The position numbers and the translations under genes were made by a program. This document shows, in pieces, positions 8,124 through 46,080 of a stretch of DNA of 64,000 bases. A model generated the notes under the pieces. It was not told where the DNA came from. It made no database searches and saw only the letters and a list, made by a program, of their open reading frames with translations. The DNA is taken from NCBI GenBank assembly GCA_013407085.1, contig JACCGJ010010535.1, positions 1 through 64,000 of the forward strand, written 5' to 3'. This stretch comes from Atriophallophorus winterbourni. Lineage: Eukaryota; Platyhelminthes; Trematoda; Plagiorchiida; Microphallidae. How positions within the stretch are numbered: the stretch's first letter is position 1; each line of letters starts with the position of its first letter.

Positions 8124-10200
8124 GGAGGACACACAATAATCATGCGTTGGGTCAAGAGCAAAACTCTTATCCTGTGCTTTTATTGTGGAGCGTCGTGATG
8201 ACCTTGACGAATATCACAAATTTTCTACTACTAACAGGTAGGCGTAAAACATAAAAAAACCCATTCGTAACAAAATAATAAATTAGGAATAAACATCCGA
8301 ATCAACCAGTGCCAGATCACTTGGAATGAACTAGAAGATAAGATTACAACGAATTTTGATGGCTCATTGTGCAGCCGGGTGTGCATTGAGCAATACTCAA
8401 CTATGCCACTCTCAAGAAAGCTTAATAAATGCCTATTCGAGATCATTAAGACGGCGGATTATTTTCAAGAACTCAAAGTGTGGATTCACGATATTATACA
8501 ACTAGGTTTTCGGCGGGCACCCTAGACAAAGAACACGCTATAGAGAAGTGCACGATTATTAGCGGAACCCGGATCCAAGACTTCAATTGTGAAACCTCAT
8601 GATGATTTGCTGCACATCACGAATAATCTACTGCTAAGCAGTGTACCTAAATAATAAAAATCAAATTCTAAACGAGGTGATAAATCAAGAAATAACAATA
8701 ACATTTTTTCACTGTCTGATTACCTTGCATCCGATTGGATGTTCGGTCATGAAGAGCAGCACGCAACTGATATTGATGGCTCGTTTACGACTTGTCCCAC
8801 CTGAAGCGCAACTCCAGTGTGCCAGTATAAAGAAATTTCCTCACATGCCAATTCGGGATCAGTCAGATGGACAACTTCAATTAAGACCACAAGGCGTGCG
8901 TCCACGATCGCATAAGAACAAGTGGTCGGTGTACACCACAGACAGAATTCACGAAAAACCGATGTGATCGATTGAGTGAGAAAACCGATTACTGTGATCC
9001 CATCACAGATATTCGTGTCGACCTATATGAATATGAAAAAGACTCTGCGGTTAACGAGAAGTCGTTACCCTGAGAAAATAAAATTCGCCACAAAAGGGTA
9101 AATCGAAAAAATATCCATCAATAATATTCAGCGTCAGACTATATTGTGCCAGATTACATGTATGGACTCGGAAGTCACGTTACACCGGATAATATTGGCT
9201 CGCTGAACGCTGGTCGCGCACGGAGCGCAAGTGAATTGCGCCAGTCTGAAGAAACTTCATTAAATTGTTATTCGGGATTGGTCAGATTGAGGACGGCTGC
9301 GAAGACTACAAAGTGTTCGTCCACACTAGTGCACGAACAGGTGTTCGCCGCGTACCACAGATAGAAAATATGCCAAACAGATGGGCTTGATTTTAATCAG
9401 AATCCAGAATAAGTGTTTCCATCGAAGAGCGTCTTGATGACGTTGATGAATGTCACGAAGAATCCACCACTAACTTGTATACGTATACAGGTGAAATAAA
9501 TTCAGCACAAAATGGTAAACTGAGAAGAGCCATGAAATGTTATCGCTGTCAGCTCAATTGCTAACAACTGGATGGATAAACGGACACGGAGATCTGATAA
9601 AACTGATGATCATGACTCGTTCAAGACTTGTCGAACATTGAAGTCAACTCGGTGTGCCAATCTGGAGAAAGATTAATACATGCCAAATCGGGATCGGTCA
9701 AATGGTGACCGGTAGAAAAGACTTAACCGCGTGGGTTCAAGATAGTATACTGCCGGGTTTCTCAGTCTGTGCCACAGAGGGAATACACAACACTGCAACG
9801 TTCGATTAAAAGCAAAACTCGTGTTCGGTGCTTCCAATGTGGACCGTCGTGATGACTTTGAAGAATATCACGAAAACGTTACTACTACCAAGTTATCGTG
9901 AACATAAAAATTAAATTAGGCACAACATGGTAATTTGAGAATAGACATCAGATTTCATCAGTTTCATTACAATAAATGTGCGGAAAAGCAGATCAGAACT
10001 CAACAGATTTTGATGGATCGTTTGCGACTAGTTTCACATTAGGCGCTACTTCAGTGTGTCGGTATGCAGAGAGTTTGCTAAAAAGCTGAATAAGGATCGG
10101 TGTTTGGCTCGCACTACAGATCGAAAATACGCAATACTGATGTGTTCGTTTAGAAACGAAACTGGAAAAGATCGCAGTGCCAAACTTGTTGTATATCACG
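8124..10200. repeat. Satellite unit 4, truncated in monomer 6
   Basis: Fourth copy, about 2,075 bp. It follows the unit through the ATGTGTTCGTTTAGAAACG block, then departs from unit 3 at about 10,198 and passes into non-satellite sequence that leads into RTE material. The last 500 bp or so of the unit are missing, so this is a real array edge rather than an array between two complete units. Confidence 0.9.
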
Positions 10201-10405
10201 AAGAAATCGCCTAATACCCCTACACAGTTTCTTTGTGTCACGTTTTTCAGGACTGTTGCGAGGTTTTAATAAAAAGCGTCTTTTTCAGCAGTCGTCGCAG
10301 AGAGCGTCGGCGCATAAACGTTTACCAACGTAATGGTACCAGTGATGCACCTCAGATTTAGAGTTCAAATCCGTTCGCTCCCGCTGCTGCTTGGTTCTGT
10401 TGCTT

Positions 10406-22210: not shown

Positions 22211-22505
22211 AGCTCGTCTGTTTGACCGATTTGTCGAGAGTCTGACAAGGGTCGTTTTGCAAGTAATTAAATTGATGTTTCGATTCTCGTCTGATTGTAG
22301 AAGCTGCAGTTCATTAGGCGATTTCTGGGTGGAAACTTTTGGGTCATTTATTCTAACACCCGTCGGGATATTCATGTGATTTGCATCCCAGTTGGTCGAG
22401 ATTAATTCCACCATACCTCCTGTTAAAATGTTATTTTAATGGGGTTTCTATCGGTCACTATTGTAGTTTGGTGAAATCGGTAGTGTAAACGTGTTGACGA
22501 CGTTG
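22211..22505 (-). pseudogene. CR1-like ORF1 C-terminal fragment
   Basis: Minus strand. Begins at about 22,505 with NVVNTFTLPISPNYNSDR, corresponding to the VDTFRLPSSANYKG block of ORF1, then a region with LISTNWDANHMNIPTGVRIN. The same version occurs at 51,941-52,150 (DRFRIPQSPNYNSERRKPPK). It ends at the PLE start near 22,520, so the PLE lies directly against it. Confidence 0.75.
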
Positions 22506-22519
22506 CTGTGAATTTCTGC

Positions 22520-24490
22520 AAAATCTATGGAAAACACACCCAGGTCTTGGCCACAAAGACGGAGCAAATTAGAGAGAAACAGAAACGTAAGTTCTTTTGA
22601 TAACAGTGCTAAACAGTATTCTAAAGTAAGTAACTTATCAGATAGGCCGCTCTCGCAGACTGAACAAAGATTGTTGGAAAAAGGCTCAAACTTCTCTCTA
22701 AGTACAAAGGTGTTAAAACCTGAAGATATCATTCCATGCGTAGAATCCACCTTAACTCAGCTACCGGAAACACAGACAAACGCACTACGCAACTATATAG
22801 CCAGTATTATCAAGAAACAAGAGCCAGAAAAGTGTAATGGCACGCAAGATGAACAGCGAGCACGTCAGAATCTGCGGAAGGAAGAGGAAATAGTGATCAC
22901 TAGGGCCGGCAAGAGCAGGGCCGCAGTGATACTCGCAAAAAGTGATTATAGAAATGAGGTTGAAGCACACCTTGCTGATGGTCCTAATGAAAATATTGAC
23001 AGCACGAAAACCACGTCGATTATGAATAACCGTAAGCGGGTGATTTCGAGATACTTGCTCTGAATTAAGGAGGAATTTGGTCAGGTATTATGGTTCGAGC
23101 TATACGCGAAATCTGCTCATACCCCTAGGTTCTATGGGATCCCAAAGATACATAAGGTGGGCGTCCCTCTGCGACCTATCGTTGATGGCATTGGATCCCC
23201 AACACATGAATTAGCGAAGCATCTCGCTCATTTGTTGAAACCGCTAGTCGGGAACTGGGATTCTTTCATCAAGAGCTCTTTTGATTTCGTTCGTCGCTTG
23301 AGTACAATAACGCTCGACAAGGATGAGATGATGGTTAGCTTCGATGTATGCTCCTTGTTTACGAATGTGGACACCACGAGCGTTCTAGAATTAGCAAAAG
23401 AAGCACCTAATTCAGATGCGACTTTGACAGATTGTACAAACTTAAGTGTACAGCAAATCGTCAACAGTATAGCGATTTGTCTAAATATGAACCACTTTTC
23501 GATTAATGGACAGTTATGCAAGCAAGGAAGACTTAGCAATGGGTTCACCTATTTCCCCATTGTTAGCGAATATGTACATGGAGCATTTTGAAGAGTTAGC
23601 TATAACAAATGAAGCTCTTCGACCAAAGATATGGTGGCGTTATGTCGATGATACATTCGTTATCATAAAACAGATTGGAAGCATTCTATAGTTACCTTAA
23701 CAACTTGGATCCCAAAATCCAAGTTACAAAAGAGATTGAGTCGACAGAAGGGACTATTCCATTCTTGGAGTGTCTCGCGAGAAAGCAGAATGGTAAAATA
23801 AGCACTACGGTCTATCGTAAGCCAATCGACACAGATGCGGTGTTGCGGTACTCATCGTCGCACCCCCAAAATGTATTTAATTTAGTTGCAAAATCGCTGT
23901 TGTACAAGGTTGAACGCTTGTGCAGCGATGCCACCAATAGAAAACGAGCCTATCAAGAAAATAGTAGTCGGTTTGCTGATCATGGTTAACCTTAGAGCCT
24001 AATGAAACGCCAACTGAAACGGGTAAAATACCCAGCACCCAAAACAGATAGCGTTTGGCGTGCAACAGTTTCTATACATTACGTTAAGGAAGCGTCAGAT
24101 GTGATAAGTCGAATCTTGAATAACGCAGGTATACGAGTAACGTATAAAAGGTGTAGAACGTTCGGATTCTTATTAACGCATCTCAAGGATAAAACATGTT
24201 CAAGTTGCGCGACGAATTGCGTATATAAAATTAACTGCAAGGGCTGCTCGGGAGTATATATCGGGCAAACATCCAGAGAACTCAGTACTAGGATAAGTGA
24301 ACACAAAAATTGAATCGGTAAGCAGCTACGCAATCCCAGTGAATATCAATCACTGATAAGAGATTCAGCACTAGCTGAACATGTACTGGACACAGGTCAC
24401 AGCGTTAATCTTGATAACGTCGAAGTGATAAGGCGGGGAATAAACCATGCATTGACCGACTTCACGCTGATTAGGTAAGAATGCAGTCAA
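22520..24490 (+). pseudogene. Penelope-like element ORF: RT plus GIY-YIG endonuclease
   Basis: The most complete PLE here. The first frame (22,527-23,063) is a basic N-terminal region ending in RKRVISRYLL and a TGA at 23,061. RT follows in pieces: RFYGIPKIH (23,129), VGVPLRPIVDGIGSPTHELA (23,158), VSFDVCSLFTNV (23,335), a frameshift near 23,535, GSPISPLLANMYMEHFEEL, and the catalytic YVDD at 23,641-23,652. After another frameshift near 23,675 comes the thumb (IPFLECLARKQNGKISTTVY), then the endonuclease: CVYKINCKGCSGVYIGQTSR (24,218) with LSTRISEHKN, a TGA at 24,312, and further homology to about 24,475. PLEs insert DNA using RT and GIY-YIG together. This copy has at least four lesions. Confidence 0.92.
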
Positions 24491-24890
24491 TAACGTAGAT
24501 GGGAATGATATCTCCACAATCTGGCGTCCGGTTTTGCAACGGATAAACATTAACGCGCGTGACCCCTAGTGTCCGCACCGAGTACCCAATTGAGCTAATC
24601 GGTCAGCAGATGTCATTTACATCTGCCAAGACCAAAACATTTAAGGGATTATACGGCAAGTAGGGGTGGTGGTGCGTCAGTTGATGCAGATCGCACCCGT
24701 CTATCTCAACGAGTGCCAAACTCACCATGGGCTGTGTAGTTCTTAACTAGCTTTGGATTGGTCAGGTGAATGAAATTTAAGCTTGATGTCTGTTCGTACT
24801 GACACCCTTGGTCTGACGGAGCTCTGAGTCATAAGCGAAACGTTACCAATAAACACTCCCACCGATTCATTACAAACTTTTTTTTTCATG
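24491..24890 (+). mobile_element. PLE 3' region or terminal repeat
   Basis: Non-coding stretch after the PLE ORF. It carries a hammerhead-like motif at 24,808-24,849 and ends with an AAACTTTTTTTTTC stretch near 24,875. It differs from the terminal repeats at 15.7 kb and 30.6 kb, so it probably belongs to another PLE lineage. Boundaries are approximate. Confidence 0.55.
24808..24849 (+). ncRNA. Hammerhead-like ribozyme remnant, PLE
   Basis: Stem I TTGGT (24,808-24,812) pairs perfectly with ACCAA (24,845-24,849). Between them lie CTGACGGA (core CTGANGA with one extra G), a three-pair stem II (GCT with AGC) around a ten-base loop, GAAA, and ACGT as a self-complementary minimal helix III followed by T. 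Position downstream of a PLE ORF fits PLE hammerheads. The inserted G in the core probably weakens or abolishes cleavage. Confidence 0.5.
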
Positions 24891-24941
24891 ATTATGATTC
24901 CCGGATCGATCATGATCATTTTCCATTACTTTACAATACCA

Positions 24942-29650: not shown

Positions 29651-29651
29651 A

Positions 29652-30580
29652 TACTTGACGTGACGTGCGGTTAGATTAATTTCGACCTCCGATATTTTTG
29701 GATATAACTTTCTTCGTTTTCATCCGATCGGTTTGATTTTTGGATATCTATCTGAAAGCTTGCTACGTCGGATCTATTCATACAAGAATCATCCATCTGC
29801 GACTTGTCGTTCTTTGTGTGCGTCAACCGTGGATTTTTCTACAGTTCGTTCGTTTATTTGAATCGCTTTTGTGTTTCTGCTGTTCGATTAACCCATCGGT
29901 GTTTACCACTGCCAGGAACTACTCGGAGAAATACACAACGTGAAATCAAATTCACGCCAAAAATCTCAAAGGGAATCTGGCAAATTAGCGGCTAAATCGG
30001 GTGACGAAATATCCCTGCAACCCGTCATTTTCCGTCAACTCCACACAATACCGCGCAAACCAACCGCAGCCGTATCGATTTTTGCGTTCCGATTTGTACT
30101 TTTGGTTGACCCCGTTAACATGAAACAATCTGATGTTCGCGAAACGTGCGTCGTCTGCGTGAAAGTCGTCAGTGGTAAGGTCAAATCTGTCACGTGTCAA
30201 AATTGTTTCCACACCTGTCACGCAAAATGTGACAAATCATTGACCCCGGATGAATTATCGATCCTGAATGATGAAAACATGACTGGTGTATGCTACGTGT
30301 GCAAAAGTTGTCGAGATAAACCAAACGCAGATTTACTTTCTGGAACAAGTGTTGCGCAAATCAACCTTTATGATCGGATGACGAGCTTAGAGCTTATCAT
30401 ACAAACGTTGAATACATCGGTAGAGACTCAAAATTCTCAGTTTGCCAGTATATTTTTCGATAAATCCGAAACCACTGACAGTAACACCAGTCAGATAAAC
30501 GCTAAATCTTGGGAGATCTTTCAACACAAAGTTTCAACTGTTGCAAATGTGCCTGTGAGTCTTGAGGAGCGTTCATTTCA
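29652..30580 (+). mobile_element. ORF1 segment with leader, left palindrome arm (outer part)
   Basis: Begins at a sharp boundary, TGACGTGACGTGCG, shared with the inverted copy at 45,252. A leader of about 470 bp (including ATCCGATCGGTTTGATTTT) precedes the PHD ORF1. Similarity to the inverted copy is about 95% by eye and ends at CGTTCATTTCAT near 30,580. It is a 5' part of a CR1-like element that lacks ORF2, tail to tail with the CR1 copy at 31.0-34.7 kb. Confidence 0.8.
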
Positions 30581-30698
30581 TCAAAAGGCCACCTTTACAA
30601 ATTCAATTCATTTCAGAGTATTGTGGTGCTCACATCCACATCCCCTACACACCACTACCGGTTTCAGGCTGTTTGCCATCGTCAGGTGGAGACAGTAA
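30120..30698 (+). CDS. PHD-finger ORF1 protein of a CR1-like element, partial
   Basis: Open frame from the ATG at 30,120 (an upstream in-frame ATG at 29,940 extends it through the leader; I prefer 30,120 because the finger starts a few residues later). Residues about 10-60 form a PHD-type zinc finger: CVVC, CQNC, HAKC, then CYVCKSC. Residues 80-140 (INLYDRMTSLELIIQTLNTS) look like a short coiled coil, a usual ORF1 oligomerisation part. The last ~40 codons read into inserted PLE repeat and are not native. The RNA-binding domain is missing. PHD fingers are known in CR1 ORF1 proteins; a host gene is less likely given the paralogues around it. Confidence 0.72.
   Translation: MKQSDVRETCVVCVKVVSGKVKSVTCQNCFHTCHAKCDKSLTPDELSILNDENMTGVCYVCKSCRDKPNADLLSGTSVAQINLYDRMTSLELIIQTLNTSVETQNSQFASIFFDKSETTDSNTSQINAKSWEIFQHKVSTVANVPVSLEERSFHQKATFTNSIHFRVLWCSHPHPLHTTTGFRLFAIVRWRQ
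30652..30689 (-). ncRNA. Hammerhead ribozyme motif, PLE repeat copy A
   Basis: Minus strand: stem I CCAC with GTGG (perfect), core CTGACGA, stem II GGC with GCC around an A-rich loop, GAAA, then ACCGGT and A as the cleavage-site base. A U-U mismatch sits at the base of stem II. Helix III is only the self-complementary ACCGGT, so two molecules could pair there. Minimal hammerheads of this kind are established for PLE terminal repeats. Confidence 0.65.
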
Positions 30699-30893
30699 GA
30701 TCAGGTTTTAGTGAGACTTGAAACAGTGGAAAAGCGGTAAACAAAGTTATATTTGTATGCCACTGTTATATAGGGTTCTTACAAAGAACCACGATGTTCA
30801 AATACAGAATCACAAAGTGATTACTGGCCAAGCGCTCGAGGCGCATATGAAAGAGCAAAGTATTGTGGTGCTCACATCCCCATCCCTTACACA

Positions 30894-30931
30894 CCACTAC
30901 CGGTTTCAGGCTATTTGCCATCTTCAGGTGG
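30894..30931 (-). ncRNA. Hammerhead ribozyme motif, PLE repeat copy B
   Basis: Same design as copy A, 242 bp away in direct orientation: CCAC with GTGG, core CTGAAGA, GGC with GCC, GAAA, ACCGGT, A. The variable position of the core (C, C and A in the three copies) is the one hammerheads tolerate. A transcript across A and B would hold two cleavage sites bracketing one repeat. Confidence 0.65.
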
Positions 30932-31032
30932 AGACAGTAAGATCAGGTTCAGTGAGCCTTGAAACAGTGGAAAAGCGGTAAACAAAGTGTCATACAAATA
31001 TAACTTTGTTTACCGCTTTTCCACTGTTTCAA

Positions 31033-34000
31033 TTCATTCCGATTCAATTCAATTTTAATGGTCTAAAAAGCATATAGCTTTACAAAAAACCACAGAATAA
31101 TATGGCAACAACGAATAATATAACAAGCAAAAATGGGATTAGGTTGCTTACTGAGCAGTTCAAGAATCAAGTAAATATACAAAGGGCAGAAATTGTTTTA
31201 GATTGGTGGGATAACAAATGTAGATGCATGGTGTTAGATGTATAGTTTTCTTCGATGCACGGGTTTAGGGTCAAAAAGGCCTCAAGGCTTCTCTTGAACG
31301 TTTGCTGATTTGGTGGGTTTACAACATTATCTGGCAGATTGTTCCAAGTAAAACAAACTCGCACGGCAAAAAATGTCGTCTGCAGTTGAGTCTCGAGTGA
31401 GGGACACTTAGAGTAAATGTGTGAGCTCTTGTATTATGCGAGCTCCGTAGATTCAATAAGCATTGTAGAGGGTGATTTTCGGTATTCAAAATATTGTAAA
31501 CCACAATCAAATCCCCTCGGAGACGACGACGTGGATATTCAAATAAATTAAGCGTTTTGATTCGCTCATTGTAGGGTTTCCGGCTGAGCCCGGTGACAAG
31601 TTTGGTAGCTCGATGATATATTCGTTGCAAAGTCGCAACATCTTTTTTAAGCCATGGCGACCATGCTTGAACTGCATATTCCATCGTGCGTCTGATTCAC
31701 GTATTTATAATGCAGGGAATTGTCTGTTTTGAGAACCTACCGAAAATTCTCTTTAGGAGTGACAATTTCTGTGATGTTTTGCGATAGACGTTGTTGCAGT
31801 GGCTCGACATCCATAGGGTGTTGCTTATCAACACAACCAAATCCTTTTGTTCCATGGTCCACGAGAATCTGTGTTCCAAGAAAATACTGGTACTCCACAT
31901 ATAAGCCCATGTTTAACATGTGACACTTTTGGAAATTGAAAAATATGCGATTTTTTAGGGACCAAACCTGGAGGTTGTCCAGATCCTTCTGGAGAAGTTC
32001 GCAGTCTTCTGACTTACTTATCTTCGACCACACTTTTATATCGTCCGCGAACAGTACGATCTTGCATTGATGAGAGCCGGTATGTCATTGGCATAAAGCG
32101 CGAAGAGGATTGGTCCGAGGACGGATCCCTGAGGCACTCCACTTGTCACGGCTACCGACTTCGATAGAGCACCGTCCACAGAGACTTGAACAAGCCGATC
32201 AGTCACGTAATTTTCGAACCATGCTAACAGACTGCCAGTGATACCACAACGTTCCAGCTTCTGCAAGAGAATACTGTGGTTTGCACGGTCAAATGCTTTC
32301 GACATATCGAGGTAGCATACATGGATGGTATCGCCAACATCTACTGCTCGAGTCCAGTCGTCAAGGGTAAGAAGAAGGTTAGTAAGGCAGGAGTATTCCC
32401 TTCTAAAACCGTGTTGCGCTCCGGAAAATAGCTTATTTTCCTCAAGGTATTTGCTCAGTTTTTTTGCCACGATCCTTTCGGGTACCTTGGATACGGCGGA
32501 CAACAAGGTAACACGTCTGTAATTTGCGGGGAGATTATACCAGATTTCCATTCAGTCGGTATGACACTTTGCGACAGCGATTCGCAGAATAACTGAGTCA
32601 GAGGTCCGCATAGAGATTGTGCACAATGCTTGAGTATATTCGGAGTAATTTTATCACAACCGGGGGATTTTCTAAGATTCAACGATAGTAGATTTCCCAG
32701 CACCTCCTCTTTGGTGATGGTTATTGTGTCCAATGGTAGAGGATGCGTTATTTCTGGATCCAGTTGTATATACACGCTTTCCTTTGGATAAAATACTGTA
32801 GCATAATAATATACCAGAACATCCGCGGTGTCAGCTGCATTTGAGGTCATTCCAGAGGGCGTCCGCAAGGCCGCAACTCCTGGTTTCACTGAACACTGCT
32901 TGTTCACAATCTGGTAAAGAAGCTTGGGATTCCGTTTCATTTTAGACATTATGACAGCTTGATACTGTATTTTGTCTTCAGCAATAAGTTTGATGACCTG
33001 GTTTCTTAGTTTTCTAAAGGTCTCCCATGTGGCATCGGTGGTTAACCGGCGATGGTTTCTCCAAGCCATATTTCGCAGTTTAATCCATTTCCGAGTGCGA
33101 CTGCGGATTTTAAATTCGAATGCATTTCCACGCTGTTTTGGTACGAATGCTGAGTTTTAGTTGATTTTTCGGTTTAGCTTGGTTAAAATGCTAGACCACT
33201 GCTCTTTTACTTATATGCCTTCAATTTGCCAATCGGTAATCAAACTTAGGGCCTTTGATAATTTAGATAGGCATACCTTTCTGATGATTTTTGTTGTATC
33301 GTTTGTTCGCTCTGCTCGACATAGGTAGTCAAAATTCAAGACCAAATGGTCGCTCGAACCTAGCGGACAATCGTGTGTAATGTTTTCGACGGAGTCTTCT
33401 TCAGTTGTCAAGATCCGATCGAGCATTGAAGGCATATCTCTACCTCTGTATATTGTATTGCCTTCAACGTGATTATACAAAGGGATTCCGTCCAACAGCT
33501 GCTGGAAGATGGCAGCGGTGGAGGTCTGAGAAATTTTGTTAGTCTCCAGCAAGTTAGGCAGATTAAAGTCTCCCATGATCAAGATTCTGGTATGATATCT
33601 CGAGGCAATCAAGCGTAGCTTGTCAAGTAGATTCGTATTATACATTTCCGGGGCTGTTGGTGGACGATAAATTACGCCAATTGTGCAATCATCGCCTGTA
33701 GTCGTTGTCAACAAACACCATAGCGTGTCCTGAAGCACCAAGTCGGAATCCGTCAGTTCTTTGCACTTGAGTCTCTGATCATAATACAGTGCCACACCTC
33801 CTTCACGTGACGCACGGTCTCGTCGGAGCAGTGACATGCCAGCAATCTCTAACTCACAATCGTGGATTTCCGGGTTCAGCCAAGTTTCGGTAATGGCAAT
33901 TAGCTGAGGTCGTTTAGTCTCACACCGAGCGACAAGTTCGGCAAATTTGTTATTCAAGCATTGCGCATTGGTATAGAGGCATCCAAGAACAGTTTGGTGA

Positions 34001-34675
34001 GCAAAGATGGATGGTGTCGTGTGATGGCATAATCTGAGACAACCGTCATTGTCACGCTGACTTTTCTGATTTTTGACAAGTTAAGTAGCGTATCGGTCAT
34101 TTGAGGTTGAGAGGCGCAAATCGAGTCCTCTTTTTGACCAAAAAGATTTATTTATCTGGCTTCAGTCCACTCTCGGGAGTCATTTGGGGTGGCTTTGCGT
34201 TCGATTGCTGATTTTGTGTCCCAGCTGAAGATTCATTTCTTGGTTCAGTTGATAGGGCTTCATCAATCCTGGCAGTATTTAATACAGAGTGGGCTGCATT
34301 TATATCAGTGTTTATGTGATCGCTAAGGATGACACCTTTTGGGATTTTGTGTTTCCAGCATTTACAGTTGGAACGTACAGTATCAACCATAGAACTCATT
34401 ATTAAGTTTACTTTTGGTGGACGTGGCCCATTACCTTTGTAGTTTGCTGAGGAAGGCAGTCTAAAAGTATCCACGGCAACGGCCTTTTCGACGAAAATGG
34501 TATCAGCCAGAAAACTCCATTGCCTGTAGTCATGCTCAGCTCGCTCGTTAGCCTCAGGATTGCCTGCCAGTTCTGGAACTCCGACGATTATGAGATTGCG
34601 ATTAGATGTCTTTCTTTTGTCATAAGTATTGTCCCTCTTTTCGGACCATGGAATATCAGAATGAATACGAATATT
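31033..34675 (-). pseudogene. CR1-like copy, left palindrome arm (inner part)
   Basis: Minus strand, ORF1 C-terminus to 3' tail. ORF1 end at 34,474-34,148 (FRLPSSANYKGNGPRPPKV). Endonuclease at 33,957-33,211 (IAITETWLNPEI, ILIMGDFNLPN, GSSDHLVLNFDYL). RT at 33,069-32,036 with PQGSVLGPILFALYANDIP. C-terminus at 31,684-31,167. Tail ATTGAA repeats near 31,038. Lesions shared with 40,090-43,745: stop after the endonuclease, a ~32-bp deletion near 32,530, a frameshift near 31,850 and a stop near 31,697. Private lesions: loss of one A near 32,069 (breaks the frame before FADD) and of 17 bp near 34,060. Otherwise the two arms are nearly identical. Confidence 0.92.
31038..31115 (-). repeat. CR1-like 3' terminal block, left arm
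   Basis: Minus-strand 3' end: CTGTGGTTTTTTGTAAAGC, TATATGCTTTTTAGACCATT, then an ATTGA-type tail broken by the PLE insertion. The same block is at 43,690-43,752 and 62,176-62,250, and variants of it end all other CR1 copies here. Confidence 0.85.
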
Positions 34676-36440
34676 CAGCGATTTTCACCTTTGTAAATTG
34701 GAGAAATTATTCTGCGTTTCCAATCTGTAGGAATCACTCCACTTGCCAGTGTTTGCTCGAACAAGTAAGTGAGTGGCTTGTATAGAACACTCGCAAATTG
34801 CTTCCATATTTTCGGGGTTATTCCGTCGGCCCCAGGAGACGTTCCAGTTTCAAGATTAAATAAACCTTGAAGGACTCGTTTCAAAGTGACATTTATTTCA
34901 CTTAGGGCAACCGTGTTTGGAAGTGTTGGATTTGGGATGTTTATTGTATGTTCTATCGGATTGAATACCACTGAACAAAACGTTTCTAAAGCATCAGCAG
35001 TTTCTGCTGCAGTTGTTGCTGGTCCAGCTGATGTGTTCACGGACGCTACTCCAGGTTTCACCTTAGCTTGATCGTTAACCATACGATACAGTACTTTGGG
35101 GTTTCGCTCCATCATGCTTCTTCTTGGAAGCACAACTTTTCTTGGATGACAAATTTGTTTACTTTGTTCCGCAGTAAACGGAATGTTTCCCAGGTCTCGG
35201 ATGATGGGTTTTGCCGATGGTGTTGCCAAGCAATTTTTCGTACCGTTAACCACTTACGAGTTCAGCTTCTTAGTTTAAATTCAAATTTTTTTCTTGAGTT
35301 CATGAGGACAAATTCGGAGCTCACTTCGATTGAACTTTTGAGATTAGATATCAGCCATTAGATATTATCTCATGTACGTTTCTAGCTTCCGGTTGGCAGT
35401 TAAACGTGTTTTTCAGAGCATCACTCAACGCCATAGTGTTGATCCGCCTAAATGTTATACGTGCATCATTTGTTCTTACAGTTTCAAACAGATCGTCAAA
35501 CTGGATGACGACATGATCACTTAGTCCCAGTGGACTTTCGCAAGCAACGTTATCAATGTCGTGTTCATTGCTTGTCACAACGAGATCCAAGAGTGAGGGT
35601 AAATCGTTTCCGCAGTATTGGGTATTACATGTCATGTGGTTATAAAGAGGAAAATCGTCAAACAACTCACTGAATGCGCGCTTGAGGGACTGCTCTGGGT
35701 AAATGGTACTGCTCTGCAGATTCGGTAAATTGAAGTCACCCATAATCAAAAATTCACAAGTGAAGCTGGAAGTAACCATGCGAATTTTATCCAGTAGGGC
35801 GAGATTGTAAGTTTTCTGTGCAGGCAGTGGGCGATATACTACTCCCAAAACACAGTCTTCACCGTTAGCTAGTCGGACTGAGCACCAGAGTGTATCCAGT
35901 AACACGGCGTCTGGATCCGTAATCTCACGACACAGAAGGTTTTGGCTATAATACAAAGCTACTCCTCCTTCTCTGGTTTCACGGCCATGACGAATAAGTG
36001 ACATTCCTGGTTATTCTAGTTCACTATTTGTTTGCTGAGTCTGTAGCCACGTTCCCGTTACGGCGATGATGTCAGGTGAACATCTCAGAAAAACTGCACG
36101 CAGTTCACCGATTTCTGAGACATTGTGCGTTGGTGTAGATGCATTTCATAGTTGTTTTTCTCAACAAGGATGGGGTGTGGGGAAGGAGGCTAGCGGAGTG
36201 CAGAATATATGTTAGGCTGACTCTTCCAGAGTCGGCAACTGAAGGTTTTTTTGCTTTTAAGGATGCTTGATCGTTTTGAGATTGCACTGTTGGAATACAA
36301 TGATATATAGTATCGGCTGAATTTGTTTCTGACACGTCAACTACTGATTGACTTGGTAGTGTTTCCATTGAGCTTCGTGGTGCATCTATCTTTCCAATAT
36401 GAAGTTTCGATGCGCTTAGTCTAATTTCTCGCGACATTTG
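34676..36440 (-). pseudogene. CR1-like copy: ORF1 end, endonuclease, RT start
   Basis: Minus strand. From 36,437: ORF1 C-terminal region (IRLSASKLHIGKID), a conserved ADSGRVSLT block, then ORF2 start (KCIYTNAQCLRNR at 36,150). Endonuclease 36,004-35,351 (GGVALYYSQNLLC, LIMGDFNLPNLQSS, LGLSDHVVIQFDDL). Linker and pre-RT to 34,676 (MMERNPKVLYRMVNDQAKVK, TSPGADGITPKIWKQF, ASGVIPTDWKRRIISPIYKG), where it is cut by the left palindrome arm. The endonuclease motifs look intact, but frameshifts separate the pieces. Confidence 0.88.
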
Positions 36441-39290: not shown

Positions 39291-40620
39291 AGTAAAGGCG
39301 GTCACGTGTGCAAAATTTATCGAAAGGCGGTAAGTCATATGACCTGTGATGTTACCCTGACTGCTGATGCTATTGCAATTATCAATAAAGATGAAATGCC
39401 AGGAGTATGCTATATCTGTCATGTATGCAGAGTTGAACCTAGAAACTCTACAAAGACGACTGCGAGCTCACAGACTGAAACTAATATGGGGTGTTGACTT
39501 TAGAGGACCGCATACAGAGAATTGAATGTTTGTTAAATGACTTATTAATTAGCAAACTGAAGCCTAGACTTGAGTGTGGAGATTGTGTTTCATCTCCGTT
39601 TCTAATGAGACAGGAAGGCGAAAAATGCGATGATGAACATACAGACATACGACCTAGCAATTCAGAACAACTGAGACGTTCCCATGATCCGCGTGCCTTA
39701 GAAAGGTCTGAAACAAATTCCACACAATCCGAGAATAAAAAGCGAGCCGTTAAATAACCATCTGATCCCAAAACAGATAATGCTTCGGAGAAACGAAATA
39801 ACATGTGCATCAAACGTAAGGCACACTCTTTGAGTGTCATTTGTACTGACGTTCCTGAGTCTGAATGCACTCTCTTCAAAGACCGTCAAAGGCATGATGA
39901 AGAATAATGGAAGGAACTGTGTGAACTTATGAACCTTGAAACTGTAGTGCCGTCAGCATTGACCCGTTTACCTAGACGGCGTGATTCACCTCATCAGGAA
40001 AACCCAGACTGTTGAGGGTTAACTTAGAAAATGAGCGTGACCTGGAAAACGTACTACTAAATTCTTACCTACTTGGGTCTTACAATTCACTGAATATTCG
40101 TATTCATGCTGATATTCCATGGTCCGAAAGGAGGGACAATACATACGACAAAAGAAAGACATCTAATCGCAATCTCATAATCCTCGGAGTTCCAGAACTG
40201 GCAGGCAATCCTGAGGCTAACGAGCGAGCTGAGCATGACTACGGGCAATGGAGTTTTCTGGCTGATACCATTTTCGTCGAAAAGGCCGTTGCCGTGGATA
40301 CTTTTAGACTGCCTTCCTCAGCAAACTACAAAGGTAATGGGCCACGTCCACCAAAAGTAAACTTAATAATGAGTTCTATGGTTGATACTGTACGTTCCAA
40401 CTGTAAATGCTGGAAACACAAAATCCCAAAAGGTGTCATCCTTAGCGATCACATAAACACTGATATAAATGCAGCCCACTCTGCATTAAATACTGCCAGG
40501 ATTGATGAAGCCCTATCAACTGAACCAAGAAATGAATCTTCAGCTGGGACACAAAATCAGCAATCGAACGCAAAGCCACCCCAAATGACTCCCGAGAGTG
40601 GACTGAAGCCAGATAAATAA
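39291..40620 (+). pseudogene. CR1-like ORF1, nearly full length but broken
   Basis: Plus strand. PHD finger (VCKIYRKAVSH, CDVTLTADAIAIINKDEMPG, CYICHVC) has lost several zinc ligands by internal deletion. The coiled-coil part is at 39,491-39,757 (LTLEDRIQRIECLLNDLLIS). Pre-RRM: LSVICTDVPESECTLFKDRQ (39,838). RRM-like core in an open frame at 40,012-40,620: NVLLNSYLLGSYNSLNIRI, NLIILGVPELAGNPEANER, VAVDTFRLPSSANYKGNGP. Stops near 39,495, 39,756, 39,906 and 40,013. From about 40,090 onward it matches the left arm; the earlier part has no counterpart there, so this is the longer copy. Confidence 0.85.
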
Positions 40621-43600
40621 ATCTTTTTGGTCAAAAAGAGGACTCGATTTGCGCCTCTCAACCTCAAATGACCGATACGCTACTTAACTTGTCAAAAATC
40701 AGAAAAGTGCCGACTCTTTCGGAGTCAGCGTGACAATGACGGTTGTCTCAGATTATGCCATCACACGACACCATCCATCTTTGCTCACCAAAACTGTTCT
40801 TGGATGCCTATATACCAATGCCCAATGCTTGAATAACAAATTTGCCGAACTATTTGCTCGGTGCGAGACTAAACGACCTCAGCTAATTGCCATTACCGAA
40901 ACTTGGCTGAACCCGGAAATCCACGATTGTGAGTTAGAGATTGCTGGCATGTCACTGCTCCGACGAGACCGTGCGTCACGTGGAGGAGGTGTGGCACTGT
41001 ATTATGATCAGAGACTCAAGTGCAAAGAACTGACGGATTCCGACTTGGTGCTTCAGGACACGCTATGGTGTTTGTTGACAACGACTACAGGCGATGATTG
41101 CACAATTGGCGTAATTTATCGTCCACCAACAGCCCCGGAAATGTATAATACGAATCTACTTGACAAGCTACGCTTGATTGCCTCGAGATATCATACCAGA
41201 ATCTTGATCATGGGAGACTTTAATCTGCCTAACTTGCTGGAGACTAACAAAATTTCTCAGACCTCCACCGCTGCCATCTTCCAGCAGCTGTTGGACGGAA
41301 TCCCTTTGTATAATCACGTTGAAGGCAATACAATATACAGAGGTAGAGATATGCCTTCAATGCTCGATCGGATCTTGACAACTGAAGAAGACTCCGTCGA
41401 AAACATTACACACGATTGTCCGCTAGGTTCGAGCGACCATTTGGTCTTGAATTTTGACTACCTATGTCGAGCAGAGCGAACAAACGATACAACAAAAATC
41501 ATCAGAAAGGTATGCCTATCTAAATTATCAAAGGCCCTAAGTTTGATTACCGATTGGCAAATTGAAGGCATATAAGTAAAAGAGCAGTGGTCTAGCATTT
41601 TAACCAAGCTAAACCGAAAAATCAACTAAAACTCAGCATTCGTACCAAAACAGCGTGGAAATGCATTCGAATTTAAAATCCGCAGTCGCACTCGGAAATG
41701 GATTAAACTGCGAAATATGGCTTGGAGAAACCATCGCCGGTTAACCACCGATGCCACATGGGAGACCTTTAGAAAACTAAGAAACCAGGTCATCAAACTT
41801 ATTGCTGAAGACAAAATACAGTATCAAGCTGTCATAATGTCTAAAATGAAACGGAATCCCAAGCTTCTTTACCAGATTGTGAACAAGCAGTGTTCAGTGA
41901 AACCAGGAGTTGCGGCCTTGCGGACGCCCTCTGGAATGACCTCAAATGCAGCTGACACCGCGGATGTTCTGGTATATTATTATGCTACAGTATTTTATCC
42001 AAAGGAAAGCGTGTATATACAACTGGATCCAGAAATAACGCATCCTCTACCATTGGACACAATAACCATCACCAAAGAGGAGGTGCTGGGAAATCTACTA
42101 TCGTTGAATCTTAGAAAATCCCCCGGTTGTGATAAAATTACTCCGAATATACTCAAGCATTGTGCACAATCTCTATGCGGACCTCTGACTCAGTTATTCT
42201 GCGAATCGCTGTCGCAAAGTGTCATACCGACTGAATGGAAATCTGGTATAATCTCCCCGCAAATTACAGACGTGTTACCTTGTTGTCCGCCGTATCCAAG
42301 GTACCCGAAAGGATCGTGGCAAAAAAACTGAGCAAATACCTTGAGGAAAATAAGCTATTTTCCGGAGCGCAACACGGTTTTAGAAGGGAATACTCCTGCC
42401 TTACTAACCTTCTTCTTACCCTTGACGACTGGACTCGAGCAGTAGATGTTGGCGATACCATCCATGTATGCTACCTCGATATGTCGAAAGCATTTGACCG
42501 TGCAAACCACAGTATTCTCTTGCAGAAGCTGGAACGTTGTGGTATCACTGGCAGTCTGTTAGCATGGTTCGAAAATTACGTGACTGATCGGCTTGTTCAA
42601 GTCTCTGTGGACGGTGCTCTATCGAAGTCGGTAGCTGTGACAAGTGGAGTGCCTCAGGGATCCGTCCTCGGACCAATCCTCTTCGCGCTTTATGCCAATG
42701 ACATACCGGCTTTCATCAAATGCAAGATCGTACTGTTCGCGGACGATATAAAAGTGTGGTCGAAGATAAGTAAGTCAGAAGACTGCGAACTTCTCCAGAA
42801 GGATCTGGACAACCTCCAGGTTTGGTCCCTAAAAAATCGCATATTTTTCAATTTCCAAAAGTGTCACATGTTAAACATGGGCTTATATGTGGAGTACCAG
42901 TATTTTCTTGGAACACAGATTCTCGTGGACCATGGAACAAAAGGATTTGGTTGTGTTGATAAGCAACACCCTATGGATGTCGAGCCACTGCAACAACGTC
43001 TATCGCAAAACATCACAGAAATTGTCACTCCTAAAGAGAATTTTCGGTAGGTTCTCAAAACAGACAATTCCCTGCATTATAAATACGTGAATCAGACGCA
43101 CGATGGAATATGCAGTTCAAGCATGGTCGCCATGGCTTAAAAAAGATGTTGCGACTTTGCAACGAATATATCATCGAGCTACCAAACTTGTCACCGGGCT
43201 CAGCCGGAAACCCTACAATGAGCGAATCAAAACGCTTAATTTATTTGAATATCCACGTCGTCGTCTCCGAGGGGATTTGATTGTGGTTTACAATATTTTG
43301 AATACCGAAAATCACCCTCTACAATGCTTATTGAATCTACGGAGCTCGCATAATACAAGAGCTCACACATTTACTCTAAGTGTCCCTCACTCGAGACTCA
43401 ACTGCAGACGACATTTTTTGCCGTGCGAGTTTGTTTTACTTGGAACAATCTGCCAGATAATGTTGTAAACTCACCAAATCAGCAAACGTTCAAGAGAAGC
43501 CTTGAGGCCTTTTTGACCCTAAACCCGTGCATCGAAGAAAACTATACATCTAACACCATGCATCTACATTTGTTATCCCACCAATCTAAAACAATTTCTG

Positions 43601-43752
43601 CCCTTTGGATATTTACTTGATTCTTGAACTGCTCAGTAAGCAACCTAATCCCATTTTTGCTTGTTATATTATTCGTTGTTGCCATATTATTCTGTGGTTT
43701 TTGTAAAGCTATATGCTTTTTAGACCATTAAAATTGAATTGAATTGATATGA
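40621..43752 (+). pseudogene. CR1-like ORF2 and 3' end, right palindrome arm (inner part)
   Basis: Plus strand. Endonuclease in one frame (40,730-41,575): GCLYTNAQCLNNKF, IAITETWLNPEI, LIMGDFNLPN (GDFN at 41,212), GSSDHLVLNFDYL; all usual catalytic residues are present. Stops follow at 41,573. Linker and pre-RT at 41,717-42,331. A ~32-bp deletion near 42,256 shifts the frame. RT at 42,235-43,050: GAQHGFRREYSCLTNLLLTL, DMSKAFDRANH, GVPQGSVLGPILFALYAND and FADD at 42,736-42,747. A frameshift near 42,880 and a stop near 43,088 precede the C-terminus. The 3' end has TTTTTAGACCATTAAAATTG and a short ATTGA tail (43,725-43,747). Confidence 0.93.
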
Positions 43753-43962
43753 ATTGATTTGCGAATTCGAGGATAAATCCTCATTTGCAAATTAAAATTT
43801 AGCTTTCATGTGGGGACTAAGCTAAGTCCCACAATTGGTGCAATGCAGCACCGGTAACTGTTTGGAATATTTTTCAACATTCCAATAACAGCATGATGGT
43901 TAGGTTTTTTGTTTGAAGCCAGATTTTCATTAGTAAGTAGTATATGACGTTCGAAAAGCAGG

Positions 43963-44019
43963 ACGGAAGCACACGACCGGTTTCGCGGTTGTTGCCGCTC
44001 ATGAGATATGCGTATCCGT
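43963..44019 (-). ncRNA. Hammerhead ribozyme, unit 1, core mutated
   Basis: Same fold as in unit 2: outer stem I ACGGA with TCCGT, inner stem I GCATAT with GTGTGC, stem II GCGG with CCGC and loop CAACAA, GAAA, ACCGGT, C. The core reads CTCATGA instead of CTGATGA (43,999-44,005): the invariant catalytic G at position 5 is C. That G is essential in hammerheads, so this copy should not cleave. Confidence 0.85.
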
Positions 44020-44265
44020 GACCTGACATTCGAACGCCCATCTGACTTTGTGCTAAACCCAATTATTTGCGAATTCGAGGATAAATCATCATTTGCAAAT
44101 TGAAATTTAGCTTTCATGTGGGGACTAAGCTAAGTCCCACAATTGGTGCAATGCAGCACGGTAACTGTTTGGAATATTTTTCAACATACCAATAACAGCA
44201 TGATGATTAGTTTTTTTTGAAGCCAGATTTTCATTAGAAGTTGTATATGACGTTCGAAAAGCAGG

Positions 44266-44322
44266 ACGGAAGCACACGACCGGTTTCGCGATTGTTGCCG
44301 CTCATCAGGTATGCGTATCCGT
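44266..44322 (-). ncRNA. Hammerhead ribozyme, unit 2, conserved core
   Basis: Complete type I hammerhead on the minus strand. Outer stem I ACGGA with TCCGT, an asymmetric internal loop (TAC opposite T), inner stem I GCATAC with GTGTGC (one G-U pair), core CTGATGA (44,302-44,308), stem II GCGG with TCGC (one G-U) and loop CAACAA, GAAA at 44,284-44,287, minimal helix III ACCGGT, cleavage-site C at 44,278. All invariant core bases are present. The internal loop in stem I facing loop II is the arrangement that gives natural hammerheads their fast rate. Helix III is self-complementary and very short, so a dimer may be the active form. Confidence 0.9.
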
Positions 44323-44385
44323 GACCTGAATTCGAACGCCCATCTGACTTTGTGCTAAACCCAATTATTTGCGAATTCGAGTATA

Positions 44386-45252
44386 AATGAAATGAACGCG
44401 CTCAAGACTCTCAGGCACATTTGCAACAGCTGAAACTTTGTGTTGAAAGATCTCCCAAGATTTAGCGTTTATCTGACTGGTATTACTGTCAGTGGTTTCG
44501 GATTTATCGAAAAATATACTGGCAAACTGAGAATTTTGAGTCTCTACCGATGTATTCAACGTTTGTGTGATAAGCTCTAAGCCCAGCATCCGATCATAAA
44601 GGTTGATTTGCGCAACACTTGTTCCAGCAGTTAAATCTGCGCTTGGTTTAGCTCGAAAACTTTTGCACACGTAGAATACACGCTTGTTTTCAACATTCAT
44701 ATTTTGCGTTACGTGTGGGAACAGTTTCGACACGTGACAGATTTGACCTTACCACTGACGACTTTCTTGCAGACGACGCACGTTTCGCGTTAACAGAGAC
44801 AACCAAAAGTACAAATCAGAGCACAAAAATCGATACGGCTGCGGTTGGTTTGTGTGGTATTGTGCTGAGTCGACGTAAAGTGACGGGTTGTAGGGATATT
44901 TCGCCACCCGATTTAGCCGCTAATTTGCCCGATTCCCTTTGAGAATTTTTTCGTGAATTTGATTTCACGTTGTGTATTTCTCTGACTAGTTCCCGACAGT
45001 GGTAAACACCGATGGGTTAATCGAACAGCAGAAACACAAAAGCGATTCAAATAAACGAACGAACTGTAGAAAAATCCACGGTTGACGCACACAAAGAACG
45101 ACACGTCGCAGACGGATGATTCTTGTATGAGTAGATCCGACGTAGCAAGCTTCCAGATAGATATCCAAAAATCAAACCGATCGGATGAAAACGAAGAAAG
45201 TTATATCCAAAAATATCGGAGGTCAAAATTAACCCAAACGCACGTCACGTCA
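44386..45252 (-). pseudogene. PHD-finger ORF1 segment, right palindrome arm (outer part)
   Basis: Minus-strand counterpart of 29,652-30,580, about 95% alike by eye in the leader. It starts at the same TGACGTGACGTGCG boundary (near 45,252) and ends at the same GTTCATTTCAT. The ORF1 start is damaged: a short deletion before the first Cys pair, stops near 44,720, and a deletion of about 40 bp removing CDKSLTPDEL. The readable rest (44,733-44,365) has VFYVCKSFRAKPSADL and INLYDRMLGLELITQTLNTS. The finger has lost several ligands and cannot fold. Confidence 0.85.
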
Positions 45253-46080
45253 CGTATGCATGTAGACTCTGGAGCACATCTAAGCAGGTAAACATTTAAG
45301 AGTACGTTGTCCAATTCCTCTGCAGATTGCAGCACTGTTCGAAAGAGGCGAGAATCATCTTTGTGAGGAAAATTCAGGTGGCGGTTCACCAGAACTATTG
45401 ATGATGGAGTAATTGCGGCCAGTCTCATCTGACTACAGGATTTATACCACTCAACTAAGTCATGTTTTTGCTTAGCTTCGAACAGCGTTTCCCGTGAATC
45501 GGTCACACTGGTACATATAACACTTAGGTTTATACCCGCGGATTTTTGTTTATAATTGGAGCCAGACTTTTAAGAACTGGTTTTGCTGAGTCCCTTCTCG
45601 TTTCGGTTAAGTTGAGGAGACACTGATCCCGACGAACACTTAACTGCTTTAGTCAACATCTGCGCGGTTATCTGGGCAAATGTTGGCTTGTTCGTGTATG
45701 ATGGATTTTCTATCGGCACTTTGGCAGTAACCTCTAAGTCGGGTAACGATGGTGCCCTTATGACGTTTTTTAACAGTTCATTCAGTTTTGTATACTGAAT
45801 TCCCGTCCATTTAGACGCGTCTCAATTTTATACTTAGAGGTTTTCGCCTCCGAGGATGATGCTGTTGGCTTGGCCTTAAGAACCTGGCAAATTTAACAAA
45901 CACCGGGACAACTATCTCCATTAATAATTGATACCAAAACCGATTTTTCGAATTTTTAATGCACTTTCAACAAGCAAGCGTAACACGTGAAACACCTCGC
46001 CTTTGGACTAAACGACTTTTGGCAAACCATACACATGCTTTGTTTTCTTTTCGGGGTCATCCGGTCAGGAGTGTGAGCAG
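45253..46080 (-). pseudogene. CR1-like ORF1, PHD finger and pre-RRM region
   Basis: Minus strand. Starts near 46,067 with MTPKRKQSMCMVCQKSFSPK, then CFTCYACLLKVH, a damaged middle (PGVC, ICQVLKAKPTASSSEA) and a linker near 45,800. The pre-RRM part (45,506-45,265) has TDSRETLFEAKQKHDLVEWY, CSQMRLAAITPSSIVLVNRH and NVLLNVYLLRCAPESTC. Cut at 45,253 by the outer edge of the palindrome. Closest relative is the ORF1 at 61.6-62.2 kb. Confidence 0.82.

Follow-up and report, generated by a model that had tools for sequence, protein, structure and literature searches.

The tandem repeat of about 305 bp found in a 64,000-nucleotide stretch of Atriophallophorus winterbourni contig JACCGJ010010535.1 (the window) is probably a fluke retrozyme. 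Judged from its sequence, it is a hammerhead element of two units without coding capacity, found in hundreds of copies, and its RNA circles would enter new sites through reverse transcription that begins at fixed internal points. The window contains two units and a partial third, as the preliminary description had reported, with a copy spacing of 308 bp at the start and 302 bp at the end of the repeat, and self-comparison of the window aligned 43,752-44,086 with 44,061-44,388 at 95% identity over 335 bp (Table 1). The 305-nt repeat was absent from the list produced by Tandem Repeats Finder on the window. The window unit has a GC content of 41%, the longest stop-free stretch of its trimer is 83 codons, and inspection of the unit revealed no LTR, PBS or PPT.

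The window consists of retrotransposon-rich DNA with many non-LTR elements, and its longest ORF is similar to fluke elements: among 120 matches listed of 5,064, the best to named proteins were with Paragonimus westermani at 53-56% identity, and other contigs matched at up to 60%. The repeat had been placed in the spacer of a palindrome, a position taken to suggest a recent insertion. We found that it starts directly outside the right one of two inverted arms (element A and its inverted copy in Table 1), which are 98.8% identical. This position, together with the 5% divergence between the two units, leaves a recent insertion unsupported.

Table 1. Coordinates of the retrozyme insertion and its neighbours in the window.
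Feature	Position	Strand	Remarks
Whole retrozyme insertion	43,758-44,388	minus	RNA sense: 21-bp stub, unit 2, unit 1; end at 44,388 uncertain by about 2 bp
Unit 1 (308 bp)	43,758-44,065	minus	From repeat-family comparison
Unit 2 (302 bp)	44,066-44,367	minus	From repeat-family comparison
Stub of third unit	44,368-44,388	minus	RNA-sense 5' end of the insertion, unit position ~196
Unit 2 hammerhead	44,255-44,329	minus	Intact core; predicted cleavage after C17 at 44,278
Unit 1 hammerhead	43,952-44,026	minus	G5 to C at 44,003, predicted inactive; GUC ends at 43,975
RNA-sense 3' end of the insertion	43,758-43,763	minus	...CGCAAA, the beta end, as in 23 of 49 unique simple insertions
Element A	40,084-43,757	plus	Neighbouring non-LTR retrotransposon copy; 3' tail abuts the insertion
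Inverted copy of element A	31,029-34,684		Near-identical; compared with 40,084-43,757
ORF1 remnant of another non-LTR element	44,387-45,257	minus	Flanks the insertion opposite element A; matches 29,651-30,581 at 87%

A covariance-model scan (cmscan) of the window identified both hammerheads on the minus strand with the Rfam model Hammerhead_HH9, at 36.1 bits (E = 2e-5) for unit 2 and 32 bits (E = 4.2e-4) for unit 1, both E values being for the whole window. The check thus gave significant E values for both sites, with both scores below the gathering cut-off of 52 bits for this model, and a scan of the window at Rfam gathering thresholds listed nothing. Direct reading of the sequence confirmed the complete invariant core of unit 2 (CUGAUGA...GAAA, with GUC ending at 44,278) and the G-to-C change at the core G5 of unit 1 (CUCAUGA, at 44,003). 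The unit 2 ribozyme is composed of stem II, GCG(G)...CGC, followed by GAAA, ACCGGU and the cut after GUC. Its stem I is broken by internal loops, as first described, and is made up of three helical parts, with a further 8-bp helix (CGUUCGAA/UUCGAACG) outside. Read from the sequence, the internal loops of stem I and a loop II, which are features relevant to a loop 1-loop 2 tertiary interaction, are both present.

Between GAAA and the cut, unit 2 contains only CCGG closed by a single pair, A15.1-U16.1. A stable stem III is therefore not expected in the monomer, and the two ACCGGU palindromes of two ribozymes are predicted to pair instead. Energy folding placed the drawn ribozyme fold 3-4 kcal/mol above the minimum-energy monomer fold. 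Co-folding of two ribozymes was 2-4 kcal/mol better than two monomers, and the predicted dimers were not all the catalytic one; these energies speak neither for nor against action as a dimer. The same arrangement, one stem III pair capped by a palindromic tetraloop, is found in the axolotl HHR_Amex1 in the published account (PMC7229834), and the newt satellite hammerhead is described as having a weak stem III and dimeric cleavage in tandem repeats (PMC6155905), as predicted for the fluke ribozyme, although the host belongs to a different phylum and the likeness is one of description. Most invertebrate hammerheads, in contrast, are described with a stable stem III (PMC7761336), which makes that of the fluke ribozyme one of the amphibian kind.

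It had been proposed that a minus-strand transcript could release unit-length RNA. This is not supported at the window locus, because two cuts are needed and the core of unit 1 is dead. The fold topology implies that each core in a dimer cuts the partner unit's site; the window copy would then be cut once at most and would set no monomer free. The window copy is a beta-type insertion (see below) that should no longer process itself into monomers, and sister copies with paired intact cores could release unit-length RNA.

Conservation of the ribozyme was examined in an alignment of 232 full units, taken from a sample of 40 genomic regions and the window with two duplicate loci removed. The core was intact in 180 of the 232 units (C, U or A allowed at the cut), and one subfamily had GUU in place of GUC at the cut. 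Variation amounted to 2.5% in the core columns, 4.7% in the other ribozyme columns and 6.3% in the rest, and comparison of the core with random sets of 11 columns indicated a modest excess of conservation (P = 0.017). The stems were mostly kept across units, yet nearly all variation was one-sided, and covariation adds little beyond conservation. The minimum free energy of the circular unit gave z = -5.4 for the window unit and z = -8.6 for the unit of locus L022, the two units tested, suggesting that a circle formed from the unit would be compact.

A genome search for copy number and tandem state found dispersed copies as well as arrays, the longest at least 9.4 kb. Exact matches to the 31-nt core pattern numbered 443 in the 537-Mb assembly and 0 for the reversed control, so the hammerhead is more than a chance resemblance; the first 100 of the 443 matches listed were dispersed over many contigs. 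A 628-base query of two units yielded at least 168 genomic matches (40 scored of 2,046 first-look candidates). The exact core pattern had no match in IMG/VR, GTDB contigs or plasmids, as expected for a eukaryotic repeat. The sample analysed below combined the 40 regions, which came from 38 contigs with matches, with 20 more stretches, each surrounding a core-pattern match and taken in listing order, omitting contigs already sampled and also C6 and C75 (two core matches one unit apart). As loci were chosen by two-unit similarity or an intact core, copies without the ribozyme are missing from it. L012 and L019, whose flanks are identical to those of L011 and L018, were removed before units and ends were counted. 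For the de-duplicated set of ends, three more loci were removed: L061, which repeats the flank of L060, and L027 and L042, which lack a 3' flank and are not true duplicates; L058 and L059 were both retained. Units were mostly 303-309 nt long. The shortest insertions held less than one unit, and the longest, which continues beyond its contig end, spans at least 9.4 kb.

The insertions had fixed 3' ends and scattered 5' ends. With unit coordinates counted from the ribozyme cut, the RNA-sense 3' ends clustered at ~68-72 (alpha, after ...UUUAAACAAAA) and ~216-219 (beta, after ...CGCAAA), and windows of 58-74 and 208-222 were used to score alpha and beta, respectively. Before de-duplication, the 66 3' ends comprised 26 alpha, 28 beta, two near position 185 and 10 others, and 7 of 61 5' ends fell within the alpha or beta windows. 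When head-to-head pairs were set apart, 42 of 49 unique simple insertions ended 3' at alpha (19) or beta (23), and the 5' ends were scattered apart from 4 of 43 in these windows. The clustering of 3' ends gave a binomial p of 2e-34, 3' ends being taken as independent, and the alpha/beta pattern was present in both the 40 regions and the 20 core-match stretches. A third internal end near position 185 was considered, but two blocks are too few to claim it. None of the 60 complete blocks had its 3' end within 5 nt of the cleavage site, and one had its 5' end there. The absence of 3' ends at the cut argues against a linear monomer, copied from the end that the ribozyme made, as the template. That 56 of the 60 copies read through the cleavage junction was dropped as evidence for a circle because the choice of loci forces it.

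Target duplications were evaluated against a null distribution obtained by combining the 5' flank of one insertion with the 3' flank of another (1,229 pairs; 1% level = 6.25). Duplications of 7-14 bp exceeded this level in 12 of 42 simple insertions (0.4 expected), or in 11 of 41 if L058 and L059 are, as is probable, one duplicated insertion, and the remaining 30 of the 42 had no duplication above the 1% level. A perfect 13-bp duplication framed the 5,574-bp array L021, and the window copy had 9 bp with one mismatch (score 5.55), below the 1% level. Eight of the 12 supported duplications opened with AA overlapping the A-rich end of the element. This is suggestive only of short homology at the start site, as the test permits overlap with the element end.

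Eight insertions consisted of two copies arranged head to head with their 3' ends outward, four of them among the 20 core-match loci and four among the loci of the 40 regions. Flanking duplications passed the 1% level in three of the eight, at 9 bp in L047 and L067 and at 13 bp with one mismatch in L025; these three therefore look like single events. Alpha or beta was found at both outer ends in L025, L038, L047 and L051; in L038, the two halves were separated by 95 bp and no duplication was detected. These structures suggest that the head-to-head copies arose by reverse transcription primed from both target strands.

A bolder reading, to which we give somewhat less than an even chance, is that rolling-circle target-primed reverse transcription from two fixed internal A-rich sites inserts the ribozyme-made RNA circle into the genome, with both target strands able to prime at once, so that one insertion produces a whole array or a head-to-head pair. 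In the cycle that we consider probable, a tandem copy would give rise to a read-through transcript, whose hammerheads, having a one-pair stem III capped by the palindrome CCGG, are predicted to cleave mainly as dimers. Circularization of the monomer would follow, with a host ligase the probable agent, as in published work on other animals. Target-primed reverse transcription would then start from the A-rich alpha (~68-72 nt) or beta (216-219 nt) site past the cleavage site, the observed ends marking the putative priming positions. Copying round the circle for a variable distance would allow a single event to insert a dimer or an array flanked by a 7-14 bp target duplication, and the structure and target duplications of the head-to-head copies point to occasional priming by both target strands.

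LINEs or Penelope-like elements (PLEs) have been named as candidates for the return of retrozymes to DNA in the published description (PMC7229834). The proposal that the enzyme is a LINE (CR1- or RTE-like) reverse transcriptase, acting through short T-A pairing of the nicked target with the A-run of the circle, comes close to an even chance. The many non-LTR elements in the window and the target duplications of 7-14 bp agree with such an enzyme, as does, suggestively only since overlap with the element end was allowed, the AA start of 8 of the 12 supported duplications, and the head-to-head copies resemble twin priming. However, LINE twin priming is known to produce a fixed 3' end on one side only, unlike the four head-to-head copies that carry alpha or beta on both sides.

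The reverse transcriptase of a local PLE is a plausible candidate that we would, on balance, not expect to be the enzyme. Anolis PLE was reported to start internally at two sites and to extend both strands in vitro (PMC11167929), a property that the formation of head-to-head copies would require. PLE reverse-transcriptase matches were abundant in the genome (at least 150, scored of 4,832 candidates), with open frames of up to 878 aa and with some of the matches lying in tandem, and the PLE at L069 contained an RVT_1 match (E = 2.6e-8), a GIY-YIG match below the cut-off (E = 0.0038) and a hammerhead-like motif. Five of seven PLE copies ended at L069 positions 2136-2141 and two at 2097-2098, that is, at two spots ~40 nt apart. 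The seven copies counted were those in the window, L060 and L070-L074; diverged fragments in L049 and L055, which ended at 2029, 2129 and 2070, were left out. The window copy (22,504-24,932, plus strand) is 87-89% identical to the PLE at C12109 and shares its 3' end with four other PLE copies. Against this candidate, none of the seven PLE copies ended at TTCGCAAAT, the string in common with the retrozyme beta site, and the AA overlap in 8 of 12 retrozyme duplications contrasts with the Anolis PLE, whose start site was described as not homologous to the cut DNA (PMC11167929). A direct sequence link was also considered, as L069 contains TTCGCAAATTGG, which resembles beta, ~115 nt past its own hammerhead cut. 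It was rejected because a common start of reverse transcription would put PLE copy ends there, and neither the seven PLE copies nor the L049 and L055 fragments ended at this string. Comparison of the retrozyme unit with L069 gave no significant match (best E = 0.45).

The tandem arrays bear on the nature of the template. The longest contiguous arrays were L034 (9.4 kb, off the contig end), L015 (7.5 kb) and the C10329 array L041+L042 (~7.2 kb, off the contig end). Variants confined to a single unit dominated, making up 92% of 62 variants in L021, 95% of 41 in L014 and 84% of 116 in L023, and compared with a neutral-genealogy simulation 7 of 16 arrays had an excess of private variants at an uncorrected P < 0.05 and the other 9 did not. 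The nearest neighbour lay in the same locus for 116 of the 232 units (permuted mean 16). With the two C10329 arrays pooled as one locus, mean divergence was 8.2% within loci versus 9.5% between loci, and for 16 of the 22 multi-unit loci, units were on average closer to those of some other locus than to each other. Such weak closeness within loci is expected if the templates were all near the subfamily sequence, and gives no proof of one template per array. Arrays mostly belonged to one subfamily, the exceptions being 1 of 4 in L009 and 1 of 8 in L014 (up to six haplotypes per locus were judged). Distance between units as a function of their spacing was flat in L021, L023, L024 and L027 and rose slightly in L014, L015 and L034. 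Since there was this slight rise and blocks had been duplicated in L034 and the C10329 arrays (L040, L041), crossing-over also acts. The simplest reading of the arrays is that one near-consensus circular template was copied for several rounds and that ordinary satellite turnover followed in old arrays.

It is unlikely that the same element was instead copied from a multimeric linear transcript with no circle, its tandem copies being inherited from a donor array. Oligomeric transcripts are given as precursors in the published account of retrozymes (PMC7229834), and the units within an array show no clear excess of similarity over units elsewhere, as such a template would have it. The variants of young arrays, however, are mostly private to one unit, and shared variants would be expected from a diverged donor; a young, uniform donor array or a young multimeric template could still account for the pattern. 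That the repeat is ordinary satellite DNA spread by unequal crossing-over, with the hammerhead a relic without a role, is very improbable, since the later duplication of array segments seen as shared-variant blocks in L034, L040 and L041 fits it but scattered single copies, fixed 3' with scattered 5' ends, target duplications and core conservation are not expected from it.

Animal non-LTR retrozymes, platyhelminths being among their hosts, have already been described as tandem units of ~170-400 nt with a type I hammerhead, a GC content below 50% and no LTR or PBS, occurring as dimers to long arrays and with a predicted compact circle (Cervera and de la Pena 2020, PMC7229834). The fluke repeat is like the elements of that description in unit size, type I hammerhead, low GC, lack of LTR and PBS, predicted compact circle and tandem organization from dimers to arrays. 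The retrozyme-like character proposed in the preliminary description is borne out by the type I hammerhead in tandem units of 303-308 nt, by a GC content of 41%, the absence of a long ORF and the dispersal of copies, and by target duplications in part of the sample; an intact type I core, tandem units within 150-450 bp, low-GC non-coding sequence and target duplications longer than 4 bp are all present. The 2020 account proposed tandem cDNA from primed circles and, as far as it describes them, did not map the start points (PMC7229834), whereas the fluke repeat displays two internal ends and head-to-head copies. The schistosome SM-alpha and W-elements, likened here by description, are trematode repeats with a type I hammerhead like that of the fluke repeat (W36.2_W001, 335 bp; PMC8490949, PMC6155905), and a possible target duplication was noted for W25.2 (PMC8490949, PMC6155905). 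The portions of these accounts consulted do not mention fixed internal 3' ends (PMC8490949, PMC6155905), which the fluke repeat has. PLEs, as reported, likewise have hammerhead RNA and tandem copies, and their internal initiation at two sites and extension of both strands in vitro parallel what is proposed for the fluke repeat (PMC11167929, PMC7761336). They differ in carrying an RT/GIY-YIG ORF and a minimal ribozyme (PMC11167929, PMC7761336), whereas the fluke unit has no stop-free stretch above 83 codons and a longer, multi-part stem I.

Among the open-access literature entries listed, we found neither a prior description of the 305-nt family nor any retrozyme described with fixed internal 3' ends or a head-to-head arrangement. 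The two mapped end points and the head-to-head copies raise a defined biochemical question, namely which reverse transcriptase and endonuclease start at alpha or beta on a 305-nt circle. The repeat would also extend dimer-type hammerheads to a fluke and suggests one route by which satellite arrays may arise in a single step.

Several other repeats were observed in the window. Positions 1-10,205 are taken up by a tandem repeat whose units recur every ~2.7 kb with 97% identity, a period above the limit set for Tandem Repeats Finder, and which has a weaker internal repeat (~70%). Positions 29,651-34,684 and 40,084-45,257 form an inverted duplication of non-LTR elements, 98.8% identical in the inner and 87% in the outer part, and the joints between these parts are filled by different hammerhead families, the 305-nt repeat on the right and a second, much commoner hammerhead-like tandem family of ~242 nt on the left. 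The latter occurs at 30,582-31,028 (minus strand) and 15,944 (plus strand) and is characterized by CTGACGATGGC...GCCTGAAACCGGTA, a U-U at the base of stem II and the same ACCGGU palindrome as in the 305-nt repeat. An Rfam search of 30,500-31,100 listed no hammerhead even up to E = 10, and a 40-mer of this family had 5,881 genomic matches (up to 3 mismatches), with 0 in the reversed control. At L055 (1400-1734), a copy of the 305-nt retrozyme adjoins a ribozyme of the 242-nt family. A strong hairpin at 30,960-31,031 of the window scored with miRNA models on both strands below the cut-off (mir-965, 38.9 bits versus 43). Formed by an inverted repeat where the 242-nt insertion ends, it may be another head-to-head joint rather than a miRNA.
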